Positions 4,763-40,298 of a stretch of DNA of 40,298 bases are shown in pieces (within the stretch, counting starts at the first letter, position 1; every line of letters starts with the position of its first letter). Source of the stretch: a virus. The DNA lies in the IMG/VR virus record IMGVR_UViG_3300025154_000034, positions 1 through 40,298 of that record; one strand, written 5' to 3'. The notes under the pieces are model-generated. The model was not told the DNA's origin. It saw only the letters and a list, made by a program, of their open reading frames with translations, and did no database searches. The translations under genes and the position numbers were made by a program.

Positions 4763-5638
4763 ATGTCAACAATTAATGCCTATTCTGTTGTATCAGCCAT
4801 TGCACCTGACATTCAAGAGGACGCGATATTCGTAGTCCGTGAAGCCAGTCTCATGCAGCGGCTTGTTACAGTTATGTCTGATATGAGTGGACTGAATCCA
4901 CGCAAGGGGTATCAATACAATCAGGCATCTGCAAAGGACATTGCAGAGGAAGATGATCTGACTTCATCCGCCTTCACCCCCTCGGTCGACCAGACCCTGA
5001 CACCATCCGAAATCGGAGAACAATTCTTCGTGACAGATTCCCGTGTCGAGTCTGAATTACCTGAAAACTGGCGCAACGATGCCGCTCAGGAACTTGGGTT
5101 AGCTGCACTGGATAAGATCGAAACAGATTTACTCGGTGAAATGGCTAATCTGACAGGTGGGACAATCGGTGCAGCCGGTACTGTTATCACCTGGGGTTAT
5201 CTGTCAGCCGCAATCGCACAAGCGCGAAACGCCAACAAGAACGCAGCCAAACCATTGACCGCTGTTATCCATGGTTATCAGTGGGCAGTGTTAGCTAAAA
5301 GTGCAACCATCGCTGGTGCAACCGTAGCCGCAACCGCTCCCAATTTCCAGGACAATCTGACCGCTAATGGTGGATCTGGTGTGATGGTCGCTCGTTTCAT
5401 GGGCGTACCCATTTATCAGGTTTACGCTGCTGCTGATAGTCTTGACGACTTTACCGGGGGCGTGTTCCCACGTGAAGCAATCGCGATTGACTGGAGACGT
5501 GCGATTCGTGTTGAAGCAGAACGTGACGCTTCCCGACGCGGTACTGAACTGAACATGAGTGGTGTTTATGCTCATGGTGTTTGGCGTCCTACTCGCGGTA
5601 TCAAAATGATCTTCGATGCAACCGCACCAACAAGCTAA
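4763..5638 (+). CDS. Major capsid protein (HK97 fold)
   Basis: This is the main shell protein, 291 residues. A strong ribosome-binding site (TAGGAGACAAAT) precedes ATG 4763, as expected for a very highly expressed gene. Its N-terminal arm, an acidic E-loop-like region around residues 55-85, and a long central helix with conserved Leu and Ala fit the HK97 fold. The C-terminal part has the usual beta-rich domain with FMGVPIYQV-like strands, as seen in coat proteins that follow a scaffold. It follows the scaffold by 20 bases. I see no protease gene, so maturation may rely on scaffold exit. Confidence 0.87.
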   Translation: MSTINAYSVVSAIAPDIQEDAIFVVREASLMQRLVTVMSDMSGLNPRKGYQYNQASAKDIAEEDDLTSSAFTPSVDQTLTPSEIGEQFFVTDSRVESELPENWRNDAAQELGLAALDKIETDLLGEMANLTGGTIGAAGTVITWGYLSAAIAQARNANKNAAKPLTAVIHGYQWAVLAKSATIAGATVAATAPNFQDNLTANGGSGVMVARFMGVPIYQVYAAADSLDDFTGGVFPREAIAIDWRRAIRVEAERDASRRGTELNMSGVYAHGVWRPTRGIKMIFDATAPTS

Positions 5639-5650
5639 TAGGAGGCTAAC

Positions 5651-6022
5651 ATGGCAGGACAATTTGATGTAAATATCGTTCAAATCCCCGTCGTACTGAC
5701 AGGGGCTACTGAAATTCCATTGCTCAAAGTACCAACCGTAGGCGGAGGTATCACCGTTCAATCTGTGTACATGATTAACGCTGGTACTACCGTTGCACCG
5801 CGATTTATTACAATGTCAAGTGCAGGAACACCAGCCTTGAGTGGTACTATCGCGTCATATTCTACAGCAACCGGAACTATAACCGAATCTGCGACAATTC
5901 CCGCGGCATTTGTCATCAGTGATGGATGGGTAGATGGCGGCGAATGGATTGGATTTGATCAGGCTTCTGGCACCGTGCCAGCCGGATCATATTTCTCAGT
6001 TGCTTACGTAACTGGTAGATAG
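5651..6022 (+). CDS. Probable head decoration protein
   Basis: This protein has 123 residues, nearly all beta-forming, with many Thr, Gly, Val and Ala and few charges. A consensus TAGGAGG lies just before ATG 5651, so expression should match that of the capsid gene 12 bases upstream. A small, highly expressed beta-rich protein right after the major capsid gene is most often a capsid decoration or stabilising protein. No sequence family is recognised, so the call rests on position, ribosome-binding site and composition. Confidence 0.6.
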   Translation: MAGQFDVNIVQIPVVLTGATEIPLLKVPTVGGGITVQSVYMINAGTTVAPRFITMSSAGTPALSGTIASYSTATGTITESATIPAAFVISDGWVDGGEWIGFDQASGTVPAGSYFSVAYVTGR

Positions 6023-6027
6023 TATGG

Positions 6028-6104
6028 ATGCGAGTGGATAGGTCGTTAACACCGAAAGCGGTTCACTCCAGCCGTTTCCACTCGCTTACCTGGAGTACCT
6101 GAAC
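6028..6104 (+). other. Structured intergenic element at the left edge of the accessory cassette
   Basis: The gap between the decoration gene and the first glycosyltransferase folds well. GCGAGTGGA (6030-6038) is the reverse complement of TCCACTCGC (6077-6085). Inside, GAAAGCGG pairs with CCGTTTC with one bulge. An alternative pairing joins GTTCA-CTCCAG (6061-6071) to CTGGAG (6090-6095) and TGAAC (6100-6104). There is no U-tract, so it is not a simple terminator. It could attenuate read-through from capsid genes into the cassette, process the mRNA, or mark an insertion boundary. Confidence 0.5.
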
Positions 6105-6118
6105 GGAGAGCAGGACAG

Positions 6119-8044
6119 ATGAAAATTTTATGGATGAGCAACGCCCCCTGGGTGCAAACTGGTTATGGAAATCAGACCAAGTTATTTACTCCACGAATAA
6201 ACGAATTACCAGAACATGACGTCACAATTTTTGCGTTCTATGGATTATCGGGGTCAGCACTAACGTGGAATGGAATGAGAATACTGCCTCATGGTCTTGA
6301 CATGTACGGTCAGGACATCATGAGTTCACACGCCAAGAACACAGGCTCACAGGTAATTATATCGCTTATAGATGCGTGGGTATTCAAGGCGAAAAACATC
6401 ATACACCAGGATATAAAGTGGTGCCCGTGGTTTCCTGTAGACAGCGAACCCTTACCCGTTCCCGTTGGTGATGCAATCGCTAATGCACATAAACGTATTG
6501 TATTCACGCGCTTTGCAGAACGAATGGTCAATCAGCGCGGCATGGATTGTTACTACGTCCCCCATGGCGTTGACACCAAGATATTCAAGCCGTTAGATAA
6601 AACAGGATTGCGCGAAAAGTACGGGCTGCCAAAAGATAGATATATCATAGGCATGGTAGCAGCTAACAAAGGCAATCCACCACGCAAGGCATTCTATTCA
6701 CAATTCCAGGCATTCTCCGAGTTCAAGAAACGACACGATGACGCGTTTTTGTACCTGCATACCACACGCGGAGAACATGGGGAATATGAAGGCATCAACA
6801 TTCCGGCGTATCTGGCATTCTTGGGACTAAAAGAGAATGTGGACTTTAAGATTGCCGAACAATATACATTAGTATCAGGCAACTTTGCAGATGAAAACAT
6901 GGCTGAATTGTACAACTGCATGGACGTTCACATGTTAGTCAGTATGGGAGAGGGCTTCGGTATTCCGATATTAGAAGCGCAATCGTGCGGTACACCTGTC
7001 ATCGTTGGTGACTGGACTGCAATGTCAGAATTATGCTTCGGTGGCTGGAAGGTTGAAAAGAAAGACGCGGAGCTGTTTTATAGCAATCTGGTAGCACACC
7101 AATACAATCCCCACATGCGCGGCGTGTTGAATAAAATGGAGCAGGCCTATGAAGTCAGGGGTAACACACTATACAACGAGAATGCACGCAAAGGCGCGTT
7201 GGCTTATGACGTCGATAAGATTGTTGAGAAATACTGGAAGCCTGTACTAAAGTCAATCGAAGAAAGTTTACCCGAACCGATAGAAACGAAGATGCGTAAA
7301 CATAATTGGAGTAATACGGGTGTCTATAATGCAGATGGTACAATATCATTCCCGTGTATTGACTGCTTCGACGAATTGATGTTCAATCCTGAAAACAATC
7401 ACAAGTATGTTATCAAGAACGGATTCAACCATAAACCAAACGGCGTTGAGTTGGATTTGGAAGACCATCCAACGGGCGGCGTGACAAAGATTATATGTCG
7501 CGAAATCCAGAACGATTACAAGTTGGACTTGGATTACAAAGACGGTGACGTTGTTATTGACATCGGCGCTCAGGTTGGCGTGGTGTCTGCTTATCTCGGG
7601 AAGAAATATCCGTTTATTAAAATCATTGCACTGGAACCAGTCAAGGAAAACTACGACCGCTTGATTAGAAACTTAGAAGCAAATGGGGTGAAGAATGTAA
7701 CCCCCTTGAACATGGCGGTAACGAGTGATGCTCGCAATGTCACTATGGATGGTAGCCTTGATATGAATAGCGGCTCAATGACAATTTACGGCAAAGGTAA
7801 GGCAACCATCCATAGTAAGACACTTGATGACATTATGAGAACCTTCCATATTGACAATATCCGCTTACTTAAAATCGATTGTGAGGGTGCTGAATACGAA
7901 ATACTGGAAGCCTCCGAACACCTGCTTGATAAGATAGGCGCAATACGTGGAGAAATTCACCCTATGCCCGGCAAGTCACAAGAGGATTTGATGACGCTGA
8001 TTAGAAGCCACATTCACGATGTAAAGATGACGGTGCTGAGATGA
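6119..8044 (+). CDS. Two-domain glycosyltransferase (GT4-like) fused to FkbM-type methyltransferase
   Basis: This is a bifunctional sugar-modifying enzyme of 641 residues. The N-terminal half is a GT-B fold glycosyltransferase. It has the family 4 signature E278-G-F-G-I-P-I-L-E286 (E-x7-E), which binds the nucleotide-sugar donor, followed by AQSCGTPVIVGDW. Residues about 470-630 form an FkbM-type SAM-dependent methyltransferase: VVIDIGAQVG (480-486) is the SAM loop and KIDCEGAEYE (585-594) is the hallmark motif. Together they suggest transfer of a sugar followed by O-methylation of it. A purine-rich site (GGAGAGCAGGACAG) precedes ATG 6119. The stop overlaps the next gene by ATGA. The glycan target may be a virion protein or the host surface. 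Confidence 0.88.
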   Translation: MKILWMSNAPWVQTGYGNQTKLFTPRINELPEHDVTIFAFYGLSGSALTWNGMRILPHGLDMYGQDIMSSHAKNTGSQVIISLIDAWVFKAKNIIHQDIKWCPWFPVDSEPLPVPVGDAIANAHKRIVFTRFAERMVNQRGMDCYYVPHGVDTKIFKPLDKTGLREKYGLPKDRYIIGMVAANKGNPPRKAFYSQFQAFSEFKKRHDDAFLYLHTTRGEHGEYEGINIPAYLAFLGLKENVDFKIAEQYTLVSGNFADENMAELYNCMDVHMLVSMGEGFGIPILEAQSCGTPVIVGDWTAMSELCFGGWKVEKKDAELFYSNLVAHQYNPHMRGVLNKMEQAYEVRGNTLYNENARKGALAYDVDKIVEKYWKPVLKSIEESLPEPIETKMRKHNWSNTGVYNADGTISFPCIDCFDELMFNPENNHKYVIKNGFNHKPNGVELDLEDHPTGGVTKIICREIQNDYKLDLDYKDGDVVIDIGAQVGVVSAYLGKKYPFIKIIALEPVKENYDRLIRNLEANGVKNVTPLNMAVTSDARNVTMDGSLDMNSGSMTIYGKGKATIHSKTLDDIMRTFHIDNIRLLKIDCEGAEYEILEASEHLLDKIGAIRGEIHPMPGKSQEDLMTLIRSHIHDVKMTVLR

Positions 8045-9000
8045 ACACAGGCATATACATGATACAAAATACCGTGAATGGTAATGCTTATATCGGGCAG
8101 AGTGCTAAATTAAATAATCGAAAATGGGCACATTTTTGGGCGCTTAATAATAGTACACATTTTAATCGACACTTACAAAACGCATATAACAAATATGGCA
8201 AAGAAAACTTTAGGTTTGATGTTTTGCTTTATTGCGAAAATTCTGAATTGACATACTACGAACAAAAAATAGTTGATACTCTCAGTCCAAAATATAATAT
8301 TCGTAGGGAATGTGTTGATAGTAGTAAGGGTATAACACGCACAGAAGAATATAAATTAAAACTATCTAAGGCACTTACTGGAAGAATATATTCTGAAGAA
8401 ACTATTCAAAAAATGTCATTAGCTCAATTAGGAAAAAAAGTTTCCGAAGAAACAAGAATAAAAATATCTTTATCAAATATGGGAAGAAAAGTTACTGAAG
8501 AAACAAGACGCAAAATAGGTTTAGCTAATAAAAATATGTCAGATGAAACTAGAAAAAAACTTTCTTTAATCAATACTGGCAACACTAATATGTTAGGTAA
8601 ACATCATTCAGAAGAAACCAAGCGCAAAATTTCATTATCACATATTGGAATGAAACATTCCGAAGAATCTAAAACAAAAATATCTTTAGTACAAATCGGA
8701 AAAAAACTATCTGAAGAAACTAAACATAAATTGTCTTTAGCAAACACCGGTAAAAAGCGCACAGAAGAACAAAATCGTAAAAACTCTTTAGCACACAAAG
8801 GAAAAAAACTATCTGAGGAACATAAACGTAAAATATCTTTAGTACACAAAGGAAAAAAACTATCTGAGGAACAAATAGAAAAAACACGTTTAAAAAACAC
8901 TGGCAAAAAAAGGTCTGAAGAAATCAGACAGAAAATGTCTTTAGCCGCAACAGCTAGAGAAGAAAAAAAGCGACAACAGCGATTACAGGTGCAACCATGA
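8041..9000 (+). CDS. GIY-YIG homing endonuclease with a long NUMOD3 repeat array
   Basis: This protein of 319 residues starts with a GIY-YIG nuclease domain: G4-I-Y and A16-Y-I-G, a conserved Arg near 27, and the catalytic Glu in TYYEQKIVDTL near residue 78. After residue 98 it consists of about eleven tandem copies of a 17-residue NUMOD3 motif of the type GKKLSEEHKRKISLVHK, which binds DNA in the minor groove. Known homing enzymes usually carry only a few copies, so this array is long. The gene is much richer in A and T than its neighbours, a sign of separate origin. It is joined to both neighbours by four-base ATGA overlaps, so it is free-standing and not inside an intron. Confidence 0.88.
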   Translation: MNTGIYMIQNTVNGNAYIGQSAKLNNRKWAHFWALNNSTHFNRHLQNAYNKYGKENFRFDVLLYCENSELTYYEQKIVDTLSPKYNIRRECVDSSKGITRTEEYKLKLSKALTGRIYSEETIQKMSLAQLGKKVSEETRIKISLSNMGRKVTEETRRKIGLANKNMSDETRKKLSLINTGNTNMLGKHHSEETKRKISLSHIGMKHSEESKTKISLVQIGKKLSEETKHKLSLANTGKKRTEEQNRKNSLAHKGKKLSEEHKRKISLVHKGKKLSEEQIEKTRLKNTGKKRSEEIRQKMSLAATAREEKKRQQRLQVQP

Positions 9001-9617
9001 TTAGCATCGTGACCCCATGGCATAATTGCAGCGAATTAGCGGACATGTACGAGCGTTCCCACGGGCGCGCGGAGATTATCAGCATCGACAACGGAAGCAG
9101 ACAGGAACACTCACTAAAGATAAGACAGATGACCGAACGGATGGGTGGGCAATACGTACGCAACGCTGTCAATAAGAAGTTCGCGAAGGCCAACAATCAG
9201 GGCTTCAAACTGGCAAGCAATGACATCGTAGTGTTCCTGAATAGCGACACAATGGGACAACCAGGCTGGGTATTCCAGGTGGAAGATGACGTCAAGGATG
9301 GCGCGTTATACGGCGTATCAATGGGTGTTCGCATGATAGCAGGTAAGACATTACCATACATCGAAGGCTGGTGCATCGCTGCCACAAAAGCCACATGGGA
9401 GCGCGTCGGGCTTTGGTACGAGTCCTTGAGCGGCATGTATTGGGAAGATAATATCTTGAGTTTACAGGCTATCAAAGCAGGCGTTCGATTACAGGCGACA
9501 AACTGGCAGGTGCAGCACTTGAACAATTACACCACCAACAGGACACCGGGAACATTGGATAACGTCGCAGACAATCAGGCAGTGTTTGAGAAAATGGCGA
9601 GGGAGTGGAAGCAATGA
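8997..9617 (+). CDS. Glycosyltransferase family 2
   Basis: This protein of 206 residues is a short GT-A glycosyltransferase. It opens with the strand MISIVTPWHN, then EIISIDNGS, and carries FLNSDT (near residues 79-84), the DxD-like metal and nucleotide-sugar site of family 2. A WYESLSGMYWEDN segment gives the acidic residues near the acceptor side. The usual family length is 220-300, so this one is compact. It is coupled to the homing endonuclease by an ATGA overlap and to the next gene by another. With the GT4/FkbM gene it likely builds a short modified glycan. Confidence 0.85.
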   Translation: MISIVTPWHNCSELADMYERSHGRAEIISIDNGSRQEHSLKIRQMTERMGGQYVRNAVNKKFAKANNQGFKLASNDIVVFLNSDTMGQPGWVFQVEDDVKDGALYGVSMGVRMIAGKTLPYIEGWCIAATKATWERVGLWYESLSGMYWEDNILSLQAIKAGVRLQATNWQVQHLNNYTTNRTPGTLDNVADNQAVFEKMAREWKQ

Positions 9618-10345
9618 GCATCTACGCCAACAATACACGCTTCAACCCTACGCTAAACGGTACCATCCACATCGGACATCTGTACATGGCATTAGTCAAC
9701 GAAGCAGAAGCCAGAGTAAGCGGCGGTAAGTTTATCGTTCGTTTCGAGGATAACCAAAAGGAATGGTTCTATTGCAACACACAGCAACAAATGGATCATT
9801 ATGCTGATACAATCCTGGAAGATTTAGAGTGGGCTGGTATCAAGGTTGATAAGATAGAATTTCAATCATTACTTGAACCGGAATACAAACGCTTATTGAA
9901 CCATCTCAACGGTGGAGGATTAAAAGTTAGGGAACGGTTTGCATTTGACTTACAGCCAGATGTTACATTTACCAACGCGGTCGCTTATCCATACGCACCA
10001 CACCTTACCGCTGAAAAAGTATTACTGGACTATATGGACGTTATCAATCTGCTTATTCGTGGAGAGGATTTGCTCACAGAATACAGCCTGTATAATTATT
10101 TCTGTGACCTGTGGGGAATACGAACACCAAAACACGTGTACTTGCCACGATTACGCTTACCGGATGGTTCTGAAATGCAGACGGAAATCAGTAAGACATC
10201 CGGCAATTTCAAGGTTGAAGGTTATCGTAAAGCAGGCATGAAGCCAGACAAGCTACTTGCTAAAATGCGTGAAGCGTGCCTGATTGACCCAGACGGTGAA
10301 TGGTTAATCAAGAACATCAAGCGGAGCCCTGAATGGAAATTATAA
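9614..10345 (+). CDS. Truncated glutamyl-tRNA-synthetase-like protein (class I catalytic domain only)
   Basis: This protein of 243 residues resembles the catalytic core of glutamyl/glutaminyl-tRNA synthetases. The N-terminus holds TRFNPTLNGTIHIGH, the class I HIGH signature at residues 19-22. FIVRFEDN follows as the counterpart of the FxLRIEDTD segment. RGED (149-152) matches the conserved IRGxD element. TEISKTSGN (190-198) stands where KMSKS/KLSKR is expected. There is no anticodon-binding domain; the family is usually 450-550 residues, while GluQ-RS, which modifies queuosine in tRNA-Asp, is about 300. I chose ATG 9614 (ATGA overlap) over GTG 9605. Inside a glycan cassette it may activate an amino acid for a non-tRNA acceptor. 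That role is an inference. Confidence 0.75.
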   Translation: MSIYANNTRFNPTLNGTIHIGHLYMALVNEAEARVSGGKFIVRFEDNQKEWFYCNTQQQMDHYADTILEDLEWAGIKVDKIEFQSLLEPEYKRLLNHLNGGGLKVRERFAFDLQPDVTFTNAVAYPYAPHLTAEKVLLDYMDVINLLIRGEDLLTEYSLYNYFCDLWGIRTPKHVYLPRLRLPDGSEMQTEISKTSGNFKVEGYRKAGMKPDKLLAKMREACLIDPDGEWLIKNIKRSPEWKL

Positions 10346-11280
10346 AGAACACCTCCGCTGGAATCTTTATTCTGCTACTCGTATTGATTGCTGTATTTTA
10401 CGCATTCAATCCTGTGTTCCTGTCAGCGGTCAATATTCAGACAATGGCGCGTTCTATGTCCTATAGTGGCATTATAGCGGTAGGCATGGCGTTATGCCTT
10501 ATATCAGGCGTTATTGACCTGTCTGTTGGCAGTACAGCGGCATTTGCCTCCGTCATGTTCGGGCGTGCGTTCGCATTATGGAATTTCGACATTGTGACGT
10601 CAATTCTAATAACATTAGGATTAGCGGTGATTATCGGATTATTCAATTCGTTCGTTATCCTGAAATTGAAAGTCACACCGTTTATAGCCACAATATCAAT
10701 GATGTTCGTTATTCGTGGATTGGCAAACTTTGCAAGTAATGGTTATTCAATCTATCCACTACCAGAACCAGCTTTGATGTTAGGTTATGCTAAACCATTG
10801 GGCGTGTCGTGGGCGTTTATTGCCTTTTTAATAATTATTATAATAGCCCATTTGGTTATGGAATATTCGTTATTTGGATTGCTCACACGCGCAACCGGAT
10901 CGGATCGGGAAGTTGCAATCTGTACAGAGGTAGATGTTGATAAGGTGAATGCAATCAACCTTGTGGCTATTAGCTTATTTGCTGGAATAGCAGGGATATT
11001 TATTAGCTTAATGCTAAATGCTGGAGCGCCTACCGTTGGGTCTGGTTGGGAATTTACAGCCATTACCGCGTGTGCGATTGGTGGAGTGAGCTTGTTCGGG
11101 TATCACGGGAACATGTTCGGTTTATTTTGTGGGCTTGCAGTCATTCAGGTTATCCAGAATGGGATTGTAATGATTGGTATAAGTCCGCACCTCCAAAGTG
11201 TTTTTATAGGTGGTATTTTGCTTACTGCAATGGCTGTTGATGTACGACGGCGCACCTATTTAAATTTAGACAAAGTTTAA
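10333..11280 (+). CDS. RbsC-type sugar ABC transporter permease
   Basis: This integral membrane protein of 315 residues has eight or more hydrophobic spans and matches the ribose/xylose/galactoside permease family (BPD_transp_2). ISGVIDLSVGS (about residues 57-67) is the diagnostic family motif, and later GGVSLFG is also typical. It would form the channel of a sugar importer in the host membrane. The start overlaps the synthetase-like gene by 13 bases. An RbsB-type protein follows, but I find no RbsA-type ATPase anywhere in the genome, so it would need a host ATPase. Sugar permeases are very rare in small siphophages. Confidence 0.9.
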   Translation: MEIIKNTSAGIFILLLVLIAVFYAFNPVFLSAVNIQTMARSMSYSGIIAVGMALCLISGVIDLSVGSTAAFASVMFGRAFALWNFDIVTSILITLGLAVIIGLFNSFVILKLKVTPFIATISMMFVIRGLANFASNGYSIYPLPEPALMLGYAKPLGVSWAFIAFLIIIIIAHLVMEYSLFGLLTRATGSDREVAICTEVDVDKVNAINLVAISLFAGIAGIFISLMLNAGAPTVGSGWEFTAITACAIGGVSLFGYHGNMFGLFCGLAVIQVIQNGIVMIGISPHLQSVFIGGILLTAMAVDVRRRTYLNLDKV

Positions 11281-11293
11281 AGGAGTAATAAAA

Positions 11294-12316
11294 ATGGAGT
11301 ACAAAAAAGTATTTCTAATCGTCGTAATGCTGATTTTAGTAATCGGCATGATTGGGTGCAAGCCCAAACCGGAAGTAGTCGCACCCGTTGAAATTCCACA
11401 GGCTGAGAAGTCTGTCAAGGAATTACAGAACGGGGTTCCTTTCCGCTATGTTGGCAATGGTCTCGAGCATCCTGTTATTAGAATTATGATGCTGGGATTT
11501 CAAGAGGCATGCGAAGACTATGACGCGTTATGTGAGTTTCATGTTGGTAGCACATTCGAGGACGCTGTTTATTTACAGATGTTGGATCAAGCAATGGGAT
11601 TAGGCTCAACTGGCATGTTAGTGTCTTCATATGGGCCACATAGACCATTAGCAATGCAAGGTATAAAACAAGGTATTCCAATGGTAAGTTTTCACACTCC
11701 ACTGGAAGAAACTGACATGCCCGGGTTGATTGCCTGGGTTGCAACCGACGTAACAGATTACGGTAAACGCGCCGCCGATGCAATGGCTGAGAAATTACAA
11801 TGTCAAGGCCCGATAGCCATTACACAGAATACATTCAATGACGTTGAAAACGAAGCCGCTAGAAGTTTTACCGAAGAAATGAAAATCAAGTGTCCTGATG
11901 TAGTTGTCTTACCATCTCAAGAAGAAGGAGGTGATCCACCCTCTGCAATCGCTAAGGCGAGCGCTATCTTGGTCGCCAACCCTGATTTGAAGGGTGCATT
12001 TGGCACAACGGGCGGTAGTCCTACCACGTGGGGCAAAGCCGCAGAACAAGCCGGAAAACAGCCTGGAGAACTGATTATTATCGGCATGGATTACACAAGA
12101 CCAAATCTTGATTTAGTCAAAGCCGGATGGGTATATGCGTTAGTGGGTCAACCTATTTACGAAGAAACTTACAGATGCGTTGAATTACTGATTGCTAACC
12201 TCAAAGGTGAAACAGTAGAATTTGATAACGTTTTCCCGTCACCTATTATAACAATTGATGACGTGGATAAATATTACGGTTATGCAGACCGTGTTGATGA
12301 AAAATTGGATAGATAA
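11294..12316 (+). CDS. RbsB-type sugar-binding lipoprotein
   Basis: This is a periplasmic-binding-protein fold (Peripla_BP_4 family) of 340 residues. It has a charged N-terminus, a hydrophobic span (residues 6-20) and a lipobox-like end MIG-C22, so it should be exported and lipid-anchored. It then has the two-lobed sugar-binding pattern with motifs such as VSSYGPH, GIPMVSFHT and FGTTGGSPTTWG. It would deliver a sugar to the permease encoded 13 bases upstream. A strong AAAGGAGTAAT ribosome-binding site precedes ATG 11294. It could instead act as a surface decoy or superinfection factor, but a transport role is the simplest reading. Confidence 0.88.
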   Translation: MEYKKVFLIVVMLILVIGMIGCKPKPEVVAPVEIPQAEKSVKELQNGVPFRYVGNGLEHPVIRIMMLGFQEACEDYDALCEFHVGSTFEDAVYLQMLDQAMGLGSTGMLVSSYGPHRPLAMQGIKQGIPMVSFHTPLEETDMPGLIAWVATDVTDYGKRAADAMAEKLQCQGPIAITQNTFNDVENEAARSFTEEMKIKCPDVVVLPSQEEGGDPPSAIAKASAILVANPDLKGAFGTTGGSPTTWGKAAEQAGKQPGELIIIGMDYTRPNLDLVKAGWVYALVGQPIYEETYRCVELLIANLKGETVEFDNVFPSPIITIDDVDKYYGYADRVDEKLDR

Positions 12317-12320
12317 ACAA

Positions 12321-13370
12321 ATGAGCTTCCTAAAAGACGATTTCATCCTTGTAATGGATTTCATATTTGAAGGAAGGCCGCTATCTTATGACAATCTGTG
12401 TCAGATACGCGATGCTGGCGTAAAGACAGTTACGTATTTCACGGATTGGAGTCAAATCGAAAAGGCGCGTGGTGTATATGATTGGTCTATTCTTGATAGA
12501 GCGGTTAACGATGCCACAAAAGCGGGGCTAAAAATTCTAATAGGTGATTATTCACAGGGCGCCGCCTGGTGTCCTAAGGAATGGTATTGTGCAACACTAA
12601 ATAATACACCGATTGAAAACCAACAAATACAACACTGGAAAAGCCTGTCAATCTGGAATAAAGAAGCGCAACAATATGTAGAGGATTTTATTCGTCTTTT
12701 AGGAAGCAGATATATAAGTGATACCGTCAAGTTATATTCAACTCAATCAGTAGCAGGAGAAAATTACCTACCCTTTGAGCCTGACAATCCATTCTATGAT
12801 GTTGCAGCAATCGAGGACTATCGCAAGTTCGTCAATAATGACACAGCCTTGCCGATTCCATATCCTCACAGGTCACCAAACGGAGACGCTATAACGGACG
12901 AATGGCTAAGAATAAGCATAGTCAAGGCAATGGTACGTCGCAACAAACTACTGATTGAGTTGAATGGTATCAACGAGATTTGGCACGCAGGACATCACTT
13001 GTGCAACTGGCAATATGCAGGTTGCGGATCTCCGTTTATTCGTGACGTTCTGGATGCGTACCTGGTGGAGTTCCCAGGTGTGATTATCAACGGTATTCAA
13101 TACACCTACTGGTATCACGAAGCATTCGATTATAAGAATATGTTGACAAACGACATAAAAAGGTATAATATGAAAGTGTGGGCTGGGGCGGAGTATTGTA
13201 CGGGGTTACAATCCTATACACCACAATTATTGAACTCTAATATATACGGGTTTATTCTAGGAATTTTATCACCATTATCTGACTTTACAAAAGTCGAACC
13301 ATGGATGATAACCAATATCAGGAATAGTTATAATGCTATAAAGCAGGCAAGGAGCGACAATGACAGCTAG
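12321..13370 (+). CDS. TIM-barrel glycoside hydrolase (clan A, GH39/GH42-like)
   Basis: This protein of 349 residues looks like a clan GH-A hydrolase. The N-terminus reads IRDAGVKTVTYF, then WSQIEKARGVYDWSILDRAV and AGLKILIGDY, which match the first strands of beta-galactosidase and GH39/42 barrels. Possible catalytic Glu residues lie in SVAGENY (acid/base position) and in VWAGAEYCTG (nucleophile position). No signal peptide is seen. I chose ATG 12321; a start at 12255 would read back into the lipoprotein gene. No strong Shine-Dalgarno is present. It closes the cassette and overlaps the connector gene by 11 bases. It may release the sugar that the transporter takes up, or trim glycans during entry. 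Confidence 0.72.
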   Translation: MSFLKDDFILVMDFIFEGRPLSYDNLCQIRDAGVKTVTYFTDWSQIEKARGVYDWSILDRAVNDATKAGLKILIGDYSQGAAWCPKEWYCATLNNTPIENQQIQHWKSLSIWNKEAQQYVEDFIRLLGSRYISDTVKLYSTQSVAGENYLPFEPDNPFYDVAAIEDYRKFVNNDTALPIPYPHRSPNGDAITDEWLRISIVKAMVRRNKLLIELNGINEIWHAGHHLCNWQYAGCGSPFIRDVLDAYLVEFPGVIINGIQYTYWYHEAFDYKNMLTNDIKRYNMKVWAGAEYCTGLQSYTPQLLNSNIYGFILGILSPLSDFTKVEPWMITNIRNSYNAIKQARSDNDS

Positions 13371-13938
13371 AACCACAATGGATGACTTAATTCAAAAGTT
13401 GCGAGTATATACACAGGCTGGGACATCAGACTTTGTTGTGAATACTACAACCTATTGGTCAGATGAACAATTACAGGACGAGCTTGATAAGACACAGAAA
13501 AAAGTCAATTATCAGGCGATGCAAGCAATCCCGACTTATGGTATTGGCGGTACTGTCACCTACACTGTTTATCAAACCGGACTTGCTGATTGGGAGAAAT
13601 CACCTGTTATCCAGAACGAAGGCGGTACAACCCTTACCGCTGGTACTGCAACCGCTAACTATAGTTTTGATGACAACGTTGGCGTTGTAACCTTTGTCAG
13701 TGATACCGAAGGTAAAACAAGGTATATAACTGGATATGTTTACAACGTTGAAATGGCAGCCGCGAAAGTGTGGGAGCAAAAAAGCGCGTTATATGCAACA
13801 TACTTTGACTTTAGCACAGACAATCACACCGTCAAGAAATCGCAAATGGTACAGGGTTGTCGTGACATGGCGAAGTATTACCAGAGCCGGGCTGGTGTTA
13901 TCCAGGTAGAAATGGTGAGGAGCGATGACACTTTCTAG
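13360..13938 (+). CDS. Head-tail connector (adaptor) protein
   Basis: This protein of 192 residues lies where the portal-adjacent adaptor gene belongs in siphophages: before head closure and tail completion genes. Its N-terminal 50 residues are helical and start with a short MDDLIQKLRVYT segment, as in many gp6/gp15-like connectors; a beta-rich insert follows, then a C-terminal helix pair with MAKYYQSRAG. AAGGAG precedes ATG 13360. In the ancestral order it probably followed the decoration gene directly, before the sugar cassette was inserted. Confidence 0.7.
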   Translation: MTARTTMDDLIQKLRVYTQAGTSDFVVNTTTYWSDEQLQDELDKTQKKVNYQAMQAIPTYGIGGTVTYTVYQTGLADWEKSPVIQNEGGTTLTAGTATANYSFDDNVGVVTFVSDTEGKTRYITGYVYNVEMAAAKVWEQKSALYATYFDFSTDNHTVKKSQMVQGCRDMAKYYQSRAGVIQVEMVRSDDTF

Positions 13939-14278
13939 CAGCGATTTATCGTATATGAGGGACGCGGTAGAATTATTGCTACCTGACACCTGCTACATCC
14001 TGACTAATTCAGGTACAGCGGATGGTTCTGGTGGTATCACCGATTCATGGGGTACAGCCACAACCACGACCGCTTGCAGACTTGATACAATGACGGGTAA
14101 TTATAAAGACATGGACGGCGCGGTGCAAACCTACAATAAACTTATCCTGAGTACACCGTATGATACAACCATCACCGAGGCAAACCGCGTTTATTATGGC
14201 GGCAATTCCTACCAGGTGACGTCTGTCAATGATGGTTCGTGGCTGGCAACTAAACGGGCGGAGGTACAAAAGATATGA
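13925..14278 (+). CDS. Head closure (stopper) protein
   Basis: This protein of 117 residues fits the head closure family of SPP1 gp16 and HK97 type. It has a short N-terminal helix, then a small beta-barrel with the typical pattern of a middle strand at LILSTPYDT and NRVYYGGNSYQVTSVND near the end, which is the usual C-terminal signature. It overlaps the connector gene by 14 bases and the gp10-like gene by ATGA. The protein should close the portal channel after packaging and form the tail-binding surface. Confidence 0.75.
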   Translation: MTLSSSDLSYMRDAVELLLPDTCYILTNSGTADGSGGITDSWGTATTTTACRLDTMTGNYKDMDGAVQTYNKLILSTPYDTTITEANRVYYGGNSYQVTSVNDGSWLATKRAEVQKI

Positions 14279-15955: not shown

Positions 15956-17572
15956 ATCGGAAAGAAGATTGCTAGCTTATACGCAGAAATTGGTGCAGAT
16001 ACCACCAAACTTAAAAAAGGGTTAGATGATACAAAAACTGGAATGGAAGGGGCGAAACAAAACTTCCTAACCAGTTCTGCTAAAATGGCAGCCGCTATTG
16101 GAATTGCAACTGCGGCTGTAGGTGCATTGTATAAGGGTCTAAAAGATACCGTCGATGTAACGATGGATTACGCCGCAGAGGTAAGAGATTTACAGCGTGC
16201 CAGCGGAATGAGCGCCGAAGAAACGTCAAAAATCATTCAAGTATTCGATGACATGGACGTTAGCGCTGAAACCCTTACAATGTCGCTCCGTAAAATGTCA
16301 CAGGAAGGTATCACGTTCTCCGTCGAAAAAATGGCGGAAATGAGCGATGAATATTTGAAACTTGAAGAAGGGGCTGAACGCAATAAGTTCTTATTGGATA
16401 ACTTCGGGCGTTCTGGTCTCGAGATGGGTAAAGCCCTTGAAATTGGTAGCGATGCTATCAAGAATATGGCTGATAATATGGACGGCGCGTTAATCCTGAC
16501 ACAGGATAGCGTGGATGCTGCCCGTGAATATGAAATCGCAATGGACGAAATGAATGATGCTGTTATGGGGTTGAAAGTATCTATTGGTAATCAGCTTATT
16601 CCAGTAATGACAGATTTAACAAATGCGTTCAATAGTATGGTAAGCCTTGTACCAGACGCTGAAAATGGTATCGATAATCTGAATGAAGCATTGATGTCTG
16701 GTGAAATATCCCATGATGATTATAAACGTGCTGTTGATGATTTATTAAAATCATTAAAAATTGAGATTGACGAACAAGGTAATCTTACCAGTAATATGCG
16801 AGGTTCGGAATCTGCAACCGACGCCTTGAAAGGATCAACCGCTTTATATTCCGAAGAAGCCTACGAAGCAGCAAAGGCAACCGCAGAATGGGACAAACAC
16901 GAAAAGATACTTGCCGACCAATTCAAAAAAGAAACCACACCAGCGATTGAAGACGCAACCGACGCTACAAACAGCGCTGCAGATGCAATGCGTAACTATA
17001 CAGAAGAATTATTATTCAGTATTGCATCACAAGGATTGACAGAAGCACAAGCGTTAGAACTTGCCTATGCAATGGGGCTGGTTGACGAAAAGACAGTATA
17101 CGCCACACAAAAAGCAGCGGATTATAAAACAATGTTGGACGAAGGTGTTATAACGCTTGCAGAATATAAAACAAAAATAGCGGAATTACAGGATGCGTTA
17201 GAGAGTCTTCCAAAAGATTTATATATTGATGTGTGGCTACAGACACATGGATTAGAGGGTATTCAAGAAATAGCAACAATGGGTGGCGGTGGATCTGGAA
17301 CCGGCGGCGGCTTTGAACAGAAAGCACTTGGCGGCGCTGTCAAAAGTGGTCAACCTGTACAATGGGGCGAATATGGACGTCCTGAAATGTTTATCACACC
17401 ATCTGGCGGCGGGCAGGTAGTCAACGCGCAACAGATTATGGAAGCAATGCGTTCAAGCGGCATGGACATCGGAAACAAGGGCGTGACCATCCAGCAACAA
17501 ATCATCTACTCAAGTACACGAGCCGACCTTATCCAATACAGTATTGAGCGTGCGAGAGGATATGCACTATGA
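15956..17572 (+). CDS. Tail tape measure protein, apparent ATC start
   Basis: This protein sets tail length and takes part in DNA entry. From ATC 15956 it has 538 residues; the first ATG is 29 codons later (16043). I prefer ATC: the segment GKKIASLYAEIGADTTKL is the standard tape-measure start, and AGGGAGG at 15943-15949 lies six bases before ATC, while ATG 16043 has no ribosome-binding site. The middle holds long helices and a hydrophobic segment (about 45-65). The end has a Gly-rich linker and WGEYGRPEMFITPSGGG, a classic tape-measure end. The size predicts a short tail of roughly 80 nm. Confidence 0.85.
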   Translation: MGKKIASLYAEIGADTTKLKKGLDDTKTGMEGAKQNFLTSSAKMAAAIGIATAAVGALYKGLKDTVDVTMDYAAEVRDLQRASGMSAEETSKIIQVFDDMDVSAETLTMSLRKMSQEGITFSVEKMAEMSDEYLKLEEGAERNKFLLDNFGRSGLEMGKALEIGSDAIKNMADNMDGALILTQDSVDAAREYEIAMDEMNDAVMGLKVSIGNQLIPVMTDLTNAFNSMVSLVPDAENGIDNLNEALMSGEISHDDYKRAVDDLLKSLKIEIDEQGNLTSNMRGSESATDALKGSTALYSEEAYEAAKATAEWDKHEKILADQFKKETTPAIEDATDATNSAADAMRNYTEELLFSIASQGLTEAQALELAYAMGLVDEKTVYATQKAADYKTMLDEGVITLAEYKTKIAELQDALESLPKDLYIDVWLQTHGLEGIQEIATMGGGGSGTGGGFEQKALGGAVKSGQPVQWGEYGRPEMFITPSGGGQVVNAQQIMEAMRSSGMDIGNKGVTIQQQIIYSSTRADLIQYSIERARGYAL

Positions 17573-20019
17573 CACTAACCAATTATAAACTTTTTGCAAT
17601 CAGACCGAAGGCGACAACGAACCTTTGTACGAATCCAAGTTTTGAGACAGGCACGACGGGCTATACTACGGGCGGTACAAACACCATAGCCACAAGCGCA
17701 ACCGTACAAAGACGGGGCGTGTATTCGTGTAAGTGTACTTATGGCAATGATGATTTAACCTTATCCTACGCAGCGACACTCACAGCTGTTGCCTATGTTG
17801 GCACGATTGACGTTTATATCCCGACTGCTTACGATGGTACAGAATTGACGCTTACCTGGACGGGTTACGCAGGCGCAAGCGTGACCGCTGGCAAACCTGA
17901 TATGACAATCCGTAACCACTGGCAACGAATAAGCGCTTACATCACACCTGTTGGCGGTGACTTAGTGGGGACGATGACATTATCTGAGACAGGTACAAAT
18001 GGCACGGCTGGCGTATTCGTTTATGTTGACGGTGTACAGATTGAAACTGGAACCGCTGCCACGACTTACCTTGACGGGGATCTGGAAGGGTTTATCAATT
18101 CAGACCAAATAACTGAGTTTTACTGGAGAGGACAATTACACGCAAGCCAAAGCACGAGAACATCTAACACGCGCGCAGGCGGGGATTTGATTGACATATC
18201 TACATATTGCAAAATCATATTGTTGGAAGGGTTAGGCGTTGCGCCTGTTGACCATGTGGCTGTACCATTGACAAGTGGCGGCGAAACTTATCTGTATTCC
18301 AATTACACCTCCAGATACTTTACTTTGAAGGTAGTATTTGAGGGTTCACACATTGGCGATATTCAGGCAAAACGCAAGGCATTATTGAACCTTATCAAAC
18401 CGGATGTGACAGGTTACGCGCAACCTCTTATATTGCGCTACCAGGGTTATACAGCCGCTGGTTTATTAGCAAGTGAACCTGTGGACATCAAGTGTCAGTA
18501 TATCAGCGGACTTGATAGTGCTCCACAAATGCGATTTGCACACTTCGCGGATATAACATTTCGGTTGTCGGACGTTGCCCTTGAAGTTGACGGCGATGTT
18601 GGAGCCGTGTTAGAAGTAAATGACACACTGGTTGACGCTGATTATATTGTAAAGCAAGATAGTACTGGTGTATGGTCTGCAATGGCTGGGGTCACTGGTA
18701 CTGTTATGGTTGTAAGACAAAATCCGGTTACAAAAGCAATATACATGGGTGGTACTGCCCTGAATATAGGTGGTGACGCGGACGCTGATTACCTGGCAAT
18801 GTGGGACGAAACAGCAGGCGCTTGGGTTGCTGTTGTTGCTGGTATCAATGGCACGGTTCACGACATCCAGTTTGATCCGGTTGGAAATATGTATATTTGC
18901 GGAGCCTTTACAGATTTAGGAGATGCCAACGGGGACAGAATTGTAAAAATAGATACGGCTTTGAATATTACAAGTTTAGGAGTAGGCGCAAATAATACCA
19001 TTAGAACAATCGCAATCGGTAATAATGGTTACATATATGTGGGTGGTGATTTTACATCTATTGGAGGTGTAGCAACTACTGGGCTTGGTGTTTGGGATGG
19101 TTCAACATGGGCGGCTGTTGGAACTGGTGTTAATAATATTGTTTATGTTCTAAAAATTGACAGACTTGGTAATCTAATTCTAGGTGGTCAATTTACATTA
19201 GCTGGTGGTGTTGCCAACACAATAAGGATTGCACAATGGGATGGATCTGTATTTACTCCGTTTAGTACAGGGGCAAACTCTGGTATTGTTTGGGATATTT
19301 ACATTGATGAAAATAATAACGTTTATACTGCCGGATCATTCAGTGCCTTAGGCGGCGTTGCCTGTCTCGGCGTTGGAATGTGGAATGGTTCAAAGTGGAA
19401 TGCTCTTGGTGCTGGCACTAATGGGACGGTTTATAATATTACAAAATTCAACAATAATATTATCTTATCCGGTAATTTTACATCTGCTGGTGCAATAACA
19501 GTATTAGATAGAATAGCAGAATATCTTGGTAACGGAGTTTATAAACCATTAGATATAGAATTACCAGGCACTCCGCTTGTTTATTCTCTGGTTGTTGATG
19601 AACAAAAAAATATGTATGTCGGATATGATACCGCTGGCACTGCAATTATTGGAGGTTGGCAATCTACGACAATTACTACGAATAATGCAGCAACTTATCC
19701 GGTGTTAGAATTTACGGGCATTGGTACATTAAAAAAGATTCATAATTACGAAAACAATAGGTCAATGGTTTTTGATGGTTTAACTCTTGTATCCGGCGAA
19801 GTAATTACATTGGACTTACGTACTGATAAGTTAACTATGACATCAACATTCAGGGGCAATGTAAAAAACTATCTTGTGAAGGGTAGTAACTTAGACTTTC
19901 CACTGATACCGGGCGATAACAATATTGGTATATTTATGACTGACACAGATGCAAGCGCAAAGGGAGTGATACGCTATAAAACACGCTTGCACGGATTGGA
20001 CGCGGCACAATATGAGTAG
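17569..20019 (+). CDS. Distal tail protein (Dit-like) with lectin-like and beta-propeller inserts
   Basis: This protein of 816 residues follows the tape measure, the place of Dit, the hub that starts the baseplate. Residues 1-20 begin as a Dit belt; about 20-180 form a jelly-roll, carbohydrate-binding-like domain (NLCTNPSFETG start). About 205-345 hold a Dit core with KVVFEGSHIGDIQAKR. About 350-690 are repeats with GGDFTSIGGV, VWDGSTW and alike, typical of a beta-propeller. The last 110 residues return to a Dit-like C-terminal domain. The usual Dit length is 250-300, so two domains have been inserted. They probably bind host surface sugars. Overlaps: ATGA at the start, 8 bases at the end. 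Confidence 0.8.
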   Translation: MTLTNYKLFAIRPKATTNLCTNPSFETGTTGYTTGGTNTIATSATVQRRGVYSCKCTYGNDDLTLSYAATLTAVAYVGTIDVYIPTAYDGTELTLTWTGYAGASVTAGKPDMTIRNHWQRISAYITPVGGDLVGTMTLSETGTNGTAGVFVYVDGVQIETGTAATTYLDGDLEGFINSDQITEFYWRGQLHASQSTRTSNTRAGGDLIDISTYCKIILLEGLGVAPVDHVAVPLTSGGETYLYSNYTSRYFTLKVVFEGSHIGDIQAKRKALLNLIKPDVTGYAQPLILRYQGYTAAGLLASEPVDIKCQYISGLDSAPQMRFAHFADITFRLSDVALEVDGDVGAVLEVNDTLVDADYIVKQDSTGVWSAMAGVTGTVMVVRQNPVTKAIYMGGTALNIGGDADADYLAMWDETAGAWVAVVAGINGTVHDIQFDPVGNMYICGAFTDLGDANGDRIVKIDTALNITSLGVGANNTIRTIAIGNNGYIYVGGDFTSIGGVATTGLGVWDGSTWAAVGTGVNNIVYVLKIDRLGNLILGGQFTLAGGVANTIRIAQWDGSVFTPFSTGANSGIVWDIYIDENNNVYTAGSFSALGGVACLGVGMWNGSKWNALGAGTNGTVYNITKFNNNIILSGNFTSAGAITVLDRIAEYLGNGVYKPLDIELPGTPLVYSLVVDEQKNMYVGYDTAGTAIIGGWQSTTITTNNAATYPVLEFTGIGTLKKIHNYENNRSMVFDGLTLVSGEVITLDLRTDKLTMTSTFRGNVKNYLVKGSNLDFPLIPGDNNIGIFMTDTDASAKGVIRYKTRLHGLDAAQYE

Positions 20020-24200: not shown

Positions 24201-24273
24201 GCCGATATAGCTCAATTGGAAGAGTGGTCGCCCTGTAAGCGACTGGTTAGTGGTTCAAGTCCACTTGTCGGCT
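24201..24273 (+). tRNA. tRNA-Thr (UGU) with unusual C33
   Basis: A full cloverleaf is visible: acceptor GCCGATA/TGTCGGC (one G-U), D-arm GCTC/GAGT with G18 and G19 in the loop, anticodon stem GTCGC/GCGAC, five-base variable loop, T-arm AGTGG/CCACT with loop TTCAAGT, and T73. The anticodon loop CCTGTAA gives anticodon TGT at 24234-24236, reading ACA (Thr). Position 33 is C, where nearly all tRNAs have U. CCA is not encoded. It likely helps read ACA, a codon often seen in this genome, unless it serves as part of the larger RNA. Confidence 0.88.
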
Positions 24274-24379
24274 CTGTCCGCAACGAGGGCTACGCGACCA
24301 CAAGAGCGTTTGTGTAGGGCTTTACTACCTTTGGGGTAGTGTCATGATGGTGGTGCCTCCACCGCAAAAACGAGGACAG
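24274..24379 (+). ncRNA. Structured RNA segment directly 3' of the tRNA
   Basis: CTGTCC (24274-24279) starts at the base after the tRNA discriminator and pairs with GGACAG (24374-24379), closing a 106-base domain. Inside are three hairpins: CTA-CACAA with TTGTG-TAG, ACTACC with GGTAGT (loop TTTGG), and GGTGG with CCACC. A further small palindrome, CGACC-T-GGTCG, follows near 24394-24410. I cannot match this to an RNA family by eye. The dense pairing and lack of an open frame support a functional RNA or a tRNA-processing domain. Confidence 0.6.
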
Positions 24380-39002: not shown

Positions 39003-40298
39003 TACCGGATCATTTAACTTCGGGAATAAAAACCTGATACCACCATCACGGTTTAAATCATGGCGTGATTGCTTGCAGTCTCTATTTCCTGATTATGTTG
39101 ATAAACCATTTGGAAAGCGTCACATAGATTTTTGGGAGTGGATTGAATCAATTGATACAAAAAAGAAACCGCGTCCATTTATAGCGTTATGGCCTAGAGG
39201 TGGAGCTAAGTCAACCAGTGCTGAAATGGCGTGTGTTCGGATTGGTAATAAGAGAGTAAGGAAATATATCTGGTATGTTTCCAGTACACAGGACAAAGCA
39301 GATAAGCACGTCGAAACAATCGGGGCAATGCTTGAGAGTAGTAACGTCGAAAGATATGACCAGTCATTATCAAGCAGAAAACTTGGTAAGTATGGACACT
39401 CTAAAGGTTGGAGACGCTCCCGGTTGAGAACTGATAGCGGTTTAACTATTGATGCACTTGGATTAGATACTGGTACTCGTGGAGCAAAGATAGAGAATCA
39501 GCGTCCTGACTTTATTATATTTGATGACGTTGACGAAAAATTTGACACACCAAAAACGACACAGAAAAAGATTGAAACAATAACAACTTCCATTCTTCCA
39601 GCCGGATCTTCAAATTGTGCAATTTTGTTTATTCAAAACTTGATACATGAAAATAGTATTGCCTCTCAATTAGCAGATGGTAGAGCTGAATTTCTTATGG
39701 ATAGAATTGTAAGCGGTTCATTTCCTGCTGTTGATGGATTGGTGTATGAGCAACAATTCAACGAATTACTTAACCGCAATCTTTATAAGATAACCAGTGG
39801 ACTTGCAACATGGGAAGGGCAATCAATCGAAATATGTCAGTCGCAGATCAATGAATGGGGATTGACCGCGTTTCTCCAGGAAGCACAACATCAAGTAACA
39901 TTGACAGGTGGTATTTGGGATCATGTTGAATTTAGACACTGTACATTTGATGAATTGCCAGACTTTGTGAGGGGTTGTGTATGGTGTGATCCAGCCGTTA
40001 CATCAACCGATGAAAGTTGTGCAAATGGTATAATTGCAGATGGATTAGCAAGGGACGGAACAATTTATAGATTGTTTTCTTGGGAAGCCGTTGATAGTCC
40101 AATGAATATATTAAAGCGTTCTATCAAAAAAGCAATAGAACTTGGTTTTAGTTATGTTGGAGTTGAAACTAATCAAGGTGGTGATCTTTGGTTTGAATCA
40201 TTTAACAGTGCATTAAAAGTAGTCAAGGAAGAATTGAAAAACGCATATACAGAAGAAGAATATAAAACAATATTGTGGCCATCCGTAAAACAAGCAAA
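38971..40298 (+). CDS. terL: Terminase large subunit, N-terminal part (continues at window start)
   Basis: This is the ATP-driven packaging motor. The frame runs off the end and continues at base 128, giving 517 residues in total. LWPRGGAKST (73-82) is a Walker A of the deviant terminase type with Lys80; FIIFDDVDE (181-189) is Walker B with the catalytic Glu; CDP (Asp340) and GVETN (Glu399) begin the RNase H-like nuclease, completed by Asp493 at the window start. ATG 38971 lies inside the small-subunit gene, in another frame. Its length is normal for the family. Confidence 0.94.
   Translation, partial: MLPAIQTPSINTGSFNFGNKNLIPPSRFKSWRDCLQSLFPDYVDKPFGKRHIDFWEWIESIDTKKKPRPFIALWPRGGAKSTSAEMACVRIGNKRVRKYIWYVSSTQDKADKHVETIGAMLESSNVERYDQSLSSRKLGKYGHSKGWRRSRLRTDSGLTIDALGLDTGTRGAKIENQRPDFIIFDDVDEKFDTPKTTQKKIETITTSILPAGSSNCAILFIQNLIHENSIASQLADGRAEFLMDRIVSGSFPAVDGLVYEQQFNELLNRNLYKITSGLATWEGQSIEICQSQINEWGLTAFLQEAQHQVTLTGGIWDHVEFRHCTFDELPDFVRGCVWCDPAVTSTDESCANGIIADGLARDGTIYRLFSWEAVDSPMNILKRSIKKAIELGFSYVGVETNQGGDLWFESFNSALKVVKEELKNAYTEEEYKTILWPSVKQA
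40172..40298. repeat. 127-bp terminal direct repeat, right copy
   Basis: This stretch is identical to bases 1-127. It lies in the terminase gene and marks the circular joint of the contig. Confidence 0.93.

Follow-up and report, generated by a model that had tools for sequence, protein, structure and literature searches.

Phages are thought to depend on host pools of activated sugars, and cyanophages carry PstS, a substrate-binding protein of the host importer type. Mycobacteriophages have glycosyltransferase (GT) genes among their cargo, for which capsid glycosylation has been suggested, though no more than suggested (PMC11256854). The locus described here joins, in one phage-borne module, genes that look fit for sugar uptake, possibly for loading the sugar with an amino acid, and for glycan building. 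The importer was apparently acquired at least twice, a sign that imported sugar may supply the glycan synthesis of some phages.

The window (that is, the whole stretch of DNA analysed, 40,298 bp) is an IMG/VR virus record, as a database look-up established. Its ends carry an exact 127-bp direct repeat (1-127 = 40172-40298) and its TerL frame continues across them; the genome is accordingly complete, at about 40,171 bp. (A technical note: the repeat marks the complete genome as circularly permuted; the record itself gives no end class. Two features lie apart from the subject of this paper: a single tRNA-Thr gene, anticodon tgt, at 24201-24274, at the end of the structural gene block, and, at 17569-20019, an 816-aa tail-region protein with a Rax2-type beta-propeller match, E 2e-16.) The capsid matches in bacterial genomes fall on three short MAG contigs (L046, L047, L048) whose bins disagree (Chloroflexi, Caldisericales, Saccharibacteria), and host assignment by this route was rejected.

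The cassette and its genes

As an earlier note on this DNA had described, the ORF listing places seven co-directional genes (6119-13370) between a decoration-like gene and a head-tail connector gene. Gene families were called from the ORF listing with Pfam (matches over cut-offs) and PHROG scans:

4763..5638, + strand: major capsid protein, left anchor of the slot (PHROG 544 major head protein; 32-103 relatives in IMG/VR)
5651..6022, + strand: small decoration-like gene, left border (no family match; kept 3' of the capsid gene in relatives)
6119..8044, + strand: GT4 glycosyltransferase-FkbM methyltransferase fusion (Pfam, PHROG 2170; the GT4 is the fixed occupant of the slot)
8041..9000, + strand: GIY-YIG/NUMOD3 homing-endonuclease-type gene (Pfam/PHROG; mobile insert, outside the module)
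8997..9617, + strand: GT2 glycosyltransferase (Pfam; kept beside GT4 and mini-GluRS)
9614..10345, + strand: mini-GluRS, the catalytic core of a class I Glu/Gln synthetase (HIGH and ISK motifs; no anticodon domain; connective domain of about 35 residues)
10333..11280, + strand: RbsC-type (CUT2) sugar permease, full length (E 4e-34; cytoplasmic loop altered, residues 182-202)
11294..12316, + strand: RbsB-type sugar-binding lipoprotein (lipobox ends at Cys22; Peripla_BP_4)
12321..13370, + strand: clan-A-type (beta/alpha)8 glycoside hydrolase (no signal peptide; candidate catalytic residues E147 and E291)
13360..13938, + strand: head-tail connector-type gene, right anchor (precedes the Phage_HCP gene at 13925-14278; kept in relatives)

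The family assignments of the earlier note hold: GT4 with FkbM, GIY-YIG with NUMOD3, GT2, the class I GluRS catalytic domain, BPD_transp_2 and Peripla_BP_4 all exceed their Pfam cut-offs, and so does the clan-A hydrolase, on a weak GH42 match. Its picture of overlapping genes needs one amendment: the hydrolase does not overlap RbsB, since its start is the ATG at 12321, which is kept in relatives, and not the TTG at 12255. The mini-GluRS begins at the ATG at 9614.

One of the seven genes does not belong. The GIY-YIG/NUMOD3 gene combines the catalytic domain, NUMOD repeats and mobile presence of a homing endonuclease: it is found in the window and L001 and is missing from the close relatives L002, L004, L005 and L010. 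In those four, GT4 and GT2 either lie next to each other or have a different small ORF between them. A relative of the GIY-YIG/NUMOD3 gene follows GT4-FkbM in L035/L036. As a mobile insert, the gene was rejected as a member of the pathway.

A slot for glycan cargo

The earlier note held that siphophages normally have no genes between decoration protein and connector. For this group of phages that is wrong. Of 87 loci with a capsid match, collected at 44-100% identity, 77 continue for 1 kb or more downstream, and every one of these has the GT4 gene in place; slot length is 2.3-8.9 kb in the 43 with both borders (some of the loci being near-duplicates of each other). A cultured relative, the Microcystis phage Mae-JY09, likewise encodes an "RfaG glycosyltransferase" (GT4) at this place. 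The remaining cargo, sampled as 33 slot proteins, serves glycan building for the most part, with GT2 and other GTs, UDP-galactopyranose mutase, methyltransferases, a formyltransferase, radical SAM, a GDSL esterase and a lectin-like protein. (Small ORFs also occur in the slot: L062 16384-16797 has a weak phage-metallopeptidase/SprT match, and L005 4478-4852 is alike by eye.) The locus is thus a glycan-cargo slot, with a fixed GT4 and swappable cargo. What is out of the ordinary for this phage group is not the slot but a sugar transporter within it: of 33 records searched for a permease, only the window and L062 have one.

The module in other phages

Scans that took mini-GluRS or RbsB as the query recovered other copies of a module comprising mini-GluRS, clan-A hydrolase, RbsC and RbsB. 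The earlier note had proposed looking for the same gene set at the same place in related phages; it is found there, at the window's own borders in contigs from metagenomes 3300025009, 3300025010, 3300027976, 3300027983, 3300001097 and 3300037692, and at the same slot in L062, L102 and L099. It is also found in phages of other kinds, in a 124 kb contig (L098; capsid and helicase matches) and a 70.7 kb contig (L100; complete, with TerL, portal and tape-measure matches and a 114-bp end repeat). Three unlike phage types therefore carry the module. Each of these five further contigs (L062, L102, L099, L098, L100) has a single-NBD ABC ATPase, mini-GluRS, RbsC, RbsB and one or two hydrolases, in varying order and with GTs or glycan genes close by; L192, a fragment, has a partial module. 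In the 70 kb phage the neighbours are RmlD, an RfbH-like DegT aminotransferase, a nucleotidyltransferase-like gene and several GTs, a company that points to glycan building rather than sugar breakdown.

The mini-GluRS also keeps company with the glycosyltransferases in other contigs: L056 and L066 have GT4, GT2 and mini-GluRS and end within or just past the latter, and in L054 the GT4-GT2-mini-GluRS region is followed by a DNA methylase-like gene and the contig end.

The earlier note had treated the whole cassette as one functional set. With the homing endonuclease removed, that proposal is supported: GT, mini-GluRS, hydrolase, RbsC and RbsB turn up as a group in divergent phages and also in the two larger ones, and glycan-building genes make up both the slot's other cargo and the module's surroundings in the 70 kb phage.

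(Other observations from these scans: RmlD and the RfbH-like aminotransferase, E 9e-124, lie upstream of the transporter module at L203 6833-10240 of G341, the 70.7 kb phage; a larger ORF at L043 5473-7141, in an unrelated 44 kb viral contig, has a mini-GluRS-like match; and the RbsB copy at L098 11295-12302 lacks the lipobox Cys and is apparently anchored by an N-terminal membrane helix. The RbsB of neither the window nor L062 finds a match in 50,697 phage records. Phage YerA41, a candidate for a phage with a sugar ABC importer, proved a false lead: the transcripts in question are the host's.)

Two probable origins for the transporter

The transporter proteins themselves are readily identified. 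RbsC matches BPD_transp_2 over profile positions 3-268 of 269 (E 4e-34) and is a full-length permease; RbsB matches Peripla_BP_4 (E 5e-26) and, with its invariant lipobox Cys22, is a secreted binding protein. Their substrate is harder to name: the weak matches, to ribose, arabinose, allose, rhizopine and CbpA/D binding proteins, are not decisive, no NCBIfam equivalog cut-off for a known sugar is reached, and RbsC searched by sequence against solved structures gives no match.

The window's transporter is not that of the other phages. RbsC of the ATPase-bearing phages is 50-77% identical to that of L062, the window's 29%; the corresponding values for RbsB, relative to L102, are 45-75% and 24%. 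In a tree with 48 Chloroflexota homologues the RbsC of the window clade pairs with one Chloroflexota RbsC (100/98), and the ATPase-bearing phages form a separate clade of their own. A single clade for all phage RbsC is rejected by the AU test (p 0.0032), on a tree with long branches, a bootstrap that has not settled and, plasmids apart, one phylum sampled. With the caution that long branches demand, a single origin is disfavoured, and the sugar transporter was apparently acquired twice, separately. In the operon of that Chloroflexota RbsC the adjacent gene codes for an RbsB that shares 38% identity with the window's (E 7e-60), a complete RbsA with two NBDs comes next, and the operon also has an isomerase-like protein and a dehydrogenase. 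Such independent recruitment of two importers to the side of the same partners is the best indication of import being part of the pathway.

Purifying selection on the transporter genes is very strong. Between the window and its relatives, dN/dS is 0.03-0.04 for RbsC and 0.02-0.04 for RbsB (0.02-0.05 for the transporter genes overall), 0.05-0.06 for mini-GluRS and 0.06-0.11 for the hydrolase, as compared with 0.12-0.15 for the capsid protein. Genes so constrained are in use.

A permease without its ATPase

The earlier note was right that the window has no ABC ATPase gene: ABC_tran is absent from the entire record, no LSGG[QE] motif occurs in any of the six frames, and the genome is complete, so that a cognate RbsA-type ATPase of the kind present in L062, L102, L099, L098 and L100 does not lie elsewhere in it. 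The permease is altered as well, in the cytoplasmic loop (GxNxxAARLxG) that we take to be the ATPase contact. In the window clade 6 of 11 conserved columns have changed (R183L, Y186R, N191D, A194V, R196I/V, G199E). Position 186 is aromatic in 48/48 bacterial homologues and position 199 is Gly in 47/48; Y186R and G199E occur in none of the 48, and the ATPase-bearing phages keep G199 and N191.

Does the window clade import anything at all? Having lost ATPase and coupling loop, its RbsB and RbsC could serve in exclusion, receptor masking or sensing; the complete, ATPase-less genome and the two substitutions without bacterial counterpart speak for this. We nevertheless think it improbable: a full-length RbsC is maintained at a dN/dS of about 0.03, other phages keep the full importer with the same partners, and the excess of changes in the loop over the rest of the permease is not significant (Fisher p 0.14). 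The ATPase that other phages carry with the same types of permease and binding protein adds to the credibility of import. For the window clade this leaves two versions: RbsC engages a host ATPase by way of an altered contact, or the RbsB/RbsC pair does its work without any.

A truncated synthetase and a barrel hydrolase

The mini-GluRS (243 aa) aligns with GluRS along the two catalytic stretches (residues 11-82 and 118-220, numbered in the longer frame), separated by a connective stretch of about 35 residues in place of about 105 in Thermus thermophilus GluRS. HIGH, ISK/MSK, the N-terminal Arg and the Arg of IRG(E/D) are kept in the phage set down to 39% identity, and the HIGH and KMSKS-type motifs with conserved Arg9 and Arg149 assign it to the class I GluRS/GluQ-RS superfamily; its score against the curated GluQ-RS model, 76.4 bits, falls short of the cut-off of 250. 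Among 301 Chloroflexota genomes the matches are full-size synthetases (at least 478 aa) except for one 318-aa frame. The AlphaFold model is weak (pLDDT 63), with GluRS still the top structural match. Judged by its motifs, the protein likely activates an amino acid; because most of the tRNA-binding parts are missing, the anticodon domain included, the acceptor would be something other than tRNA.

The hydrolase model (pLDDT 83, pTM 0.87) folds as a TIM barrel in which E147 follows strand 4 (where confidence is locally low) and E291 follows strand 7. Its best fold matches are beta-amylase and the GH42/GH35 galactosidases, GH35 and GH42 being equally good. The GH42 family score, 24.2 bits against a threshold of 21, covers only 59 residues; the residue before E147 is Gly, where the Asn-Glu acid/base pair of GH42 has Asn, and the protein consists of the barrel alone, lacking the C-terminal domains. 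E147 is invariant in ten copies; E291 is replaced by Gln in three and by His in one. (The copies with strand-7 replacements are L062 15368-16420, L102 4250-5302, L098 12433-13503 and L100 12294-13328.) In tandem pairs one copy keeps the strand-7 Glu; the other may be a binding protein. By inspection, no copy has an export signal at its N-terminus, which leaves the earlier suggestion that the hydrolase frees a sugar outside the cell unsupported; the enzyme would instead act in the cytosol, on virions or after lysis.

What the module may do

We put it at even chances that this is a phage module for importing a sugar and building an amino-acid-modified glycan, probably for the virion. The steps would be these: 1) The RbsB lipoprotein would bind a sugar or sugar-like solute outside the membrane. 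2) RbsC would bring the solute in, driven by a phage ATPase in the related phages and, in the window, by a borrowed host ATPase or in a changed, perhaps ATPase-free, mode. 3) Mini-GluRS would activate glutamate or a similar amino acid and join it to the sugar or glycan, not to tRNA. 4) GT2, GT4 and FkbM would build and methylate the glycan, with the cytosolic hydrolase trimming it. 5) The glycan would end up on virion proteins, a location suggested by the embedding of the cassette genes in the head operon. What we infer in this scheme is the import, the amino acid transfer, the glycan product and the glycan location. A fully specified version would be a pathway peculiar to phages: a sugar taken in from outside (an amino sugar or amino cyclitol, possibly) would be joined to glutamate by a tRNA-independent mini-GluRS and enter a GT-built virion glycan, so that phages would gather an external metabolite with importers recruited twice for the purpose. 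This version is offered tentatively; in that detail it is rather doubtful.

Is the transporter perhaps only a scavenger, an auxiliary metabolic device that supplies sugar for energy or nucleotides, with the glycosyltransferases merely sharing its slot? In its favour, uptake is what binding proteins and permeases are for, an isomerase-like protein and a dehydrogenase accompany the transporter in the bacterial counterpart operon, and phage-borne PstS is a known precedent for uptake genes (e.g. PMC10976474). The phage copies tell against it and make it an unlikely reading: no kinase, isomerase or dehydrogenase was seen beside the transporter in any of them, its regular companions being GT, mini-GluRS and hydrolase, joined in the 70 kb phage by sugar-nucleotide genes.

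A glycan might also be placed on the host envelope, altering phage receptors, and not on virions. Phage GTs of such a kind are known, and permease and lipoprotein are membrane proteins. The genes lie inside the head operon, presumably to be expressed late, and the Pfam/PHROG scans detect no flippase or polymerase gene in the window cassette; we accordingly give host-surface modification a low probability. That the cassette is host DNA fused to phage DNA by chimeric assembly, a refutation that the earlier note had anticipated and that the bacterial relatives of the cassette genes could suggest, is refuted: independent contigs of other metagenomes have the same borders at 82-98% protein identity (one identical contig left out), and the module is present in six more contigs of other metagenomes.

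If import for glycan building is what the module does, phages would also steer both the choice of sugar taken into the cell and the product made from it, and mini-GluRS would represent a new, non-tRNA use of an aminoacyl-tRNA synthetase core. The cultured phage Mae-JY09 shares the slot, and opens its core GT4 to study. Full-text literature searches, in which subscription journals are thinly covered, found no published description of the module, and its novelty is provisional to that extent.

Comparison with known systems

Each part of the module has a described relative from which it departs. Mini-GluRS shares the catalytic core, with HIGH and KMSKS-type motifs, of GluRS and GluQ-RS (YadB), and like the latter has no anticodon domain; its short connective domain, its length and its score set it apart from both. 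The hydrolase resembles the GH42/GH35 beta-galactosidases of clan GH-A in its TIM barrel with Glu after strands 4 and 7; it differs in being a single barrel of 349 aa, 9-16% identical to them, with that weak GH42 match only, and in that some copies in other phages are without E291. Mycobacteriophages likewise combine GT genes with suggested capsid glycosylation, in an account whose abstract mentions neither a sugar importer nor an aminoacyl-synthetase-like enzyme (PMC11256854).

The transporter belongs to the families of the CUT2 importers (RbsABC, AraFGH, XylFGH), with RbsC and RbsB in the order of the Chloroflexota operon. Unlike these it is phage-borne, without an ATPase in the window, and with a half-size, single-NBD ATPase in other phages as against the usual two-NBD RbsA. 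Cyanophage PstS is a binding protein only, and for phosphate; the module adds a permease and, in the window's relatives, an ATPase, and ties them to glycan genes.
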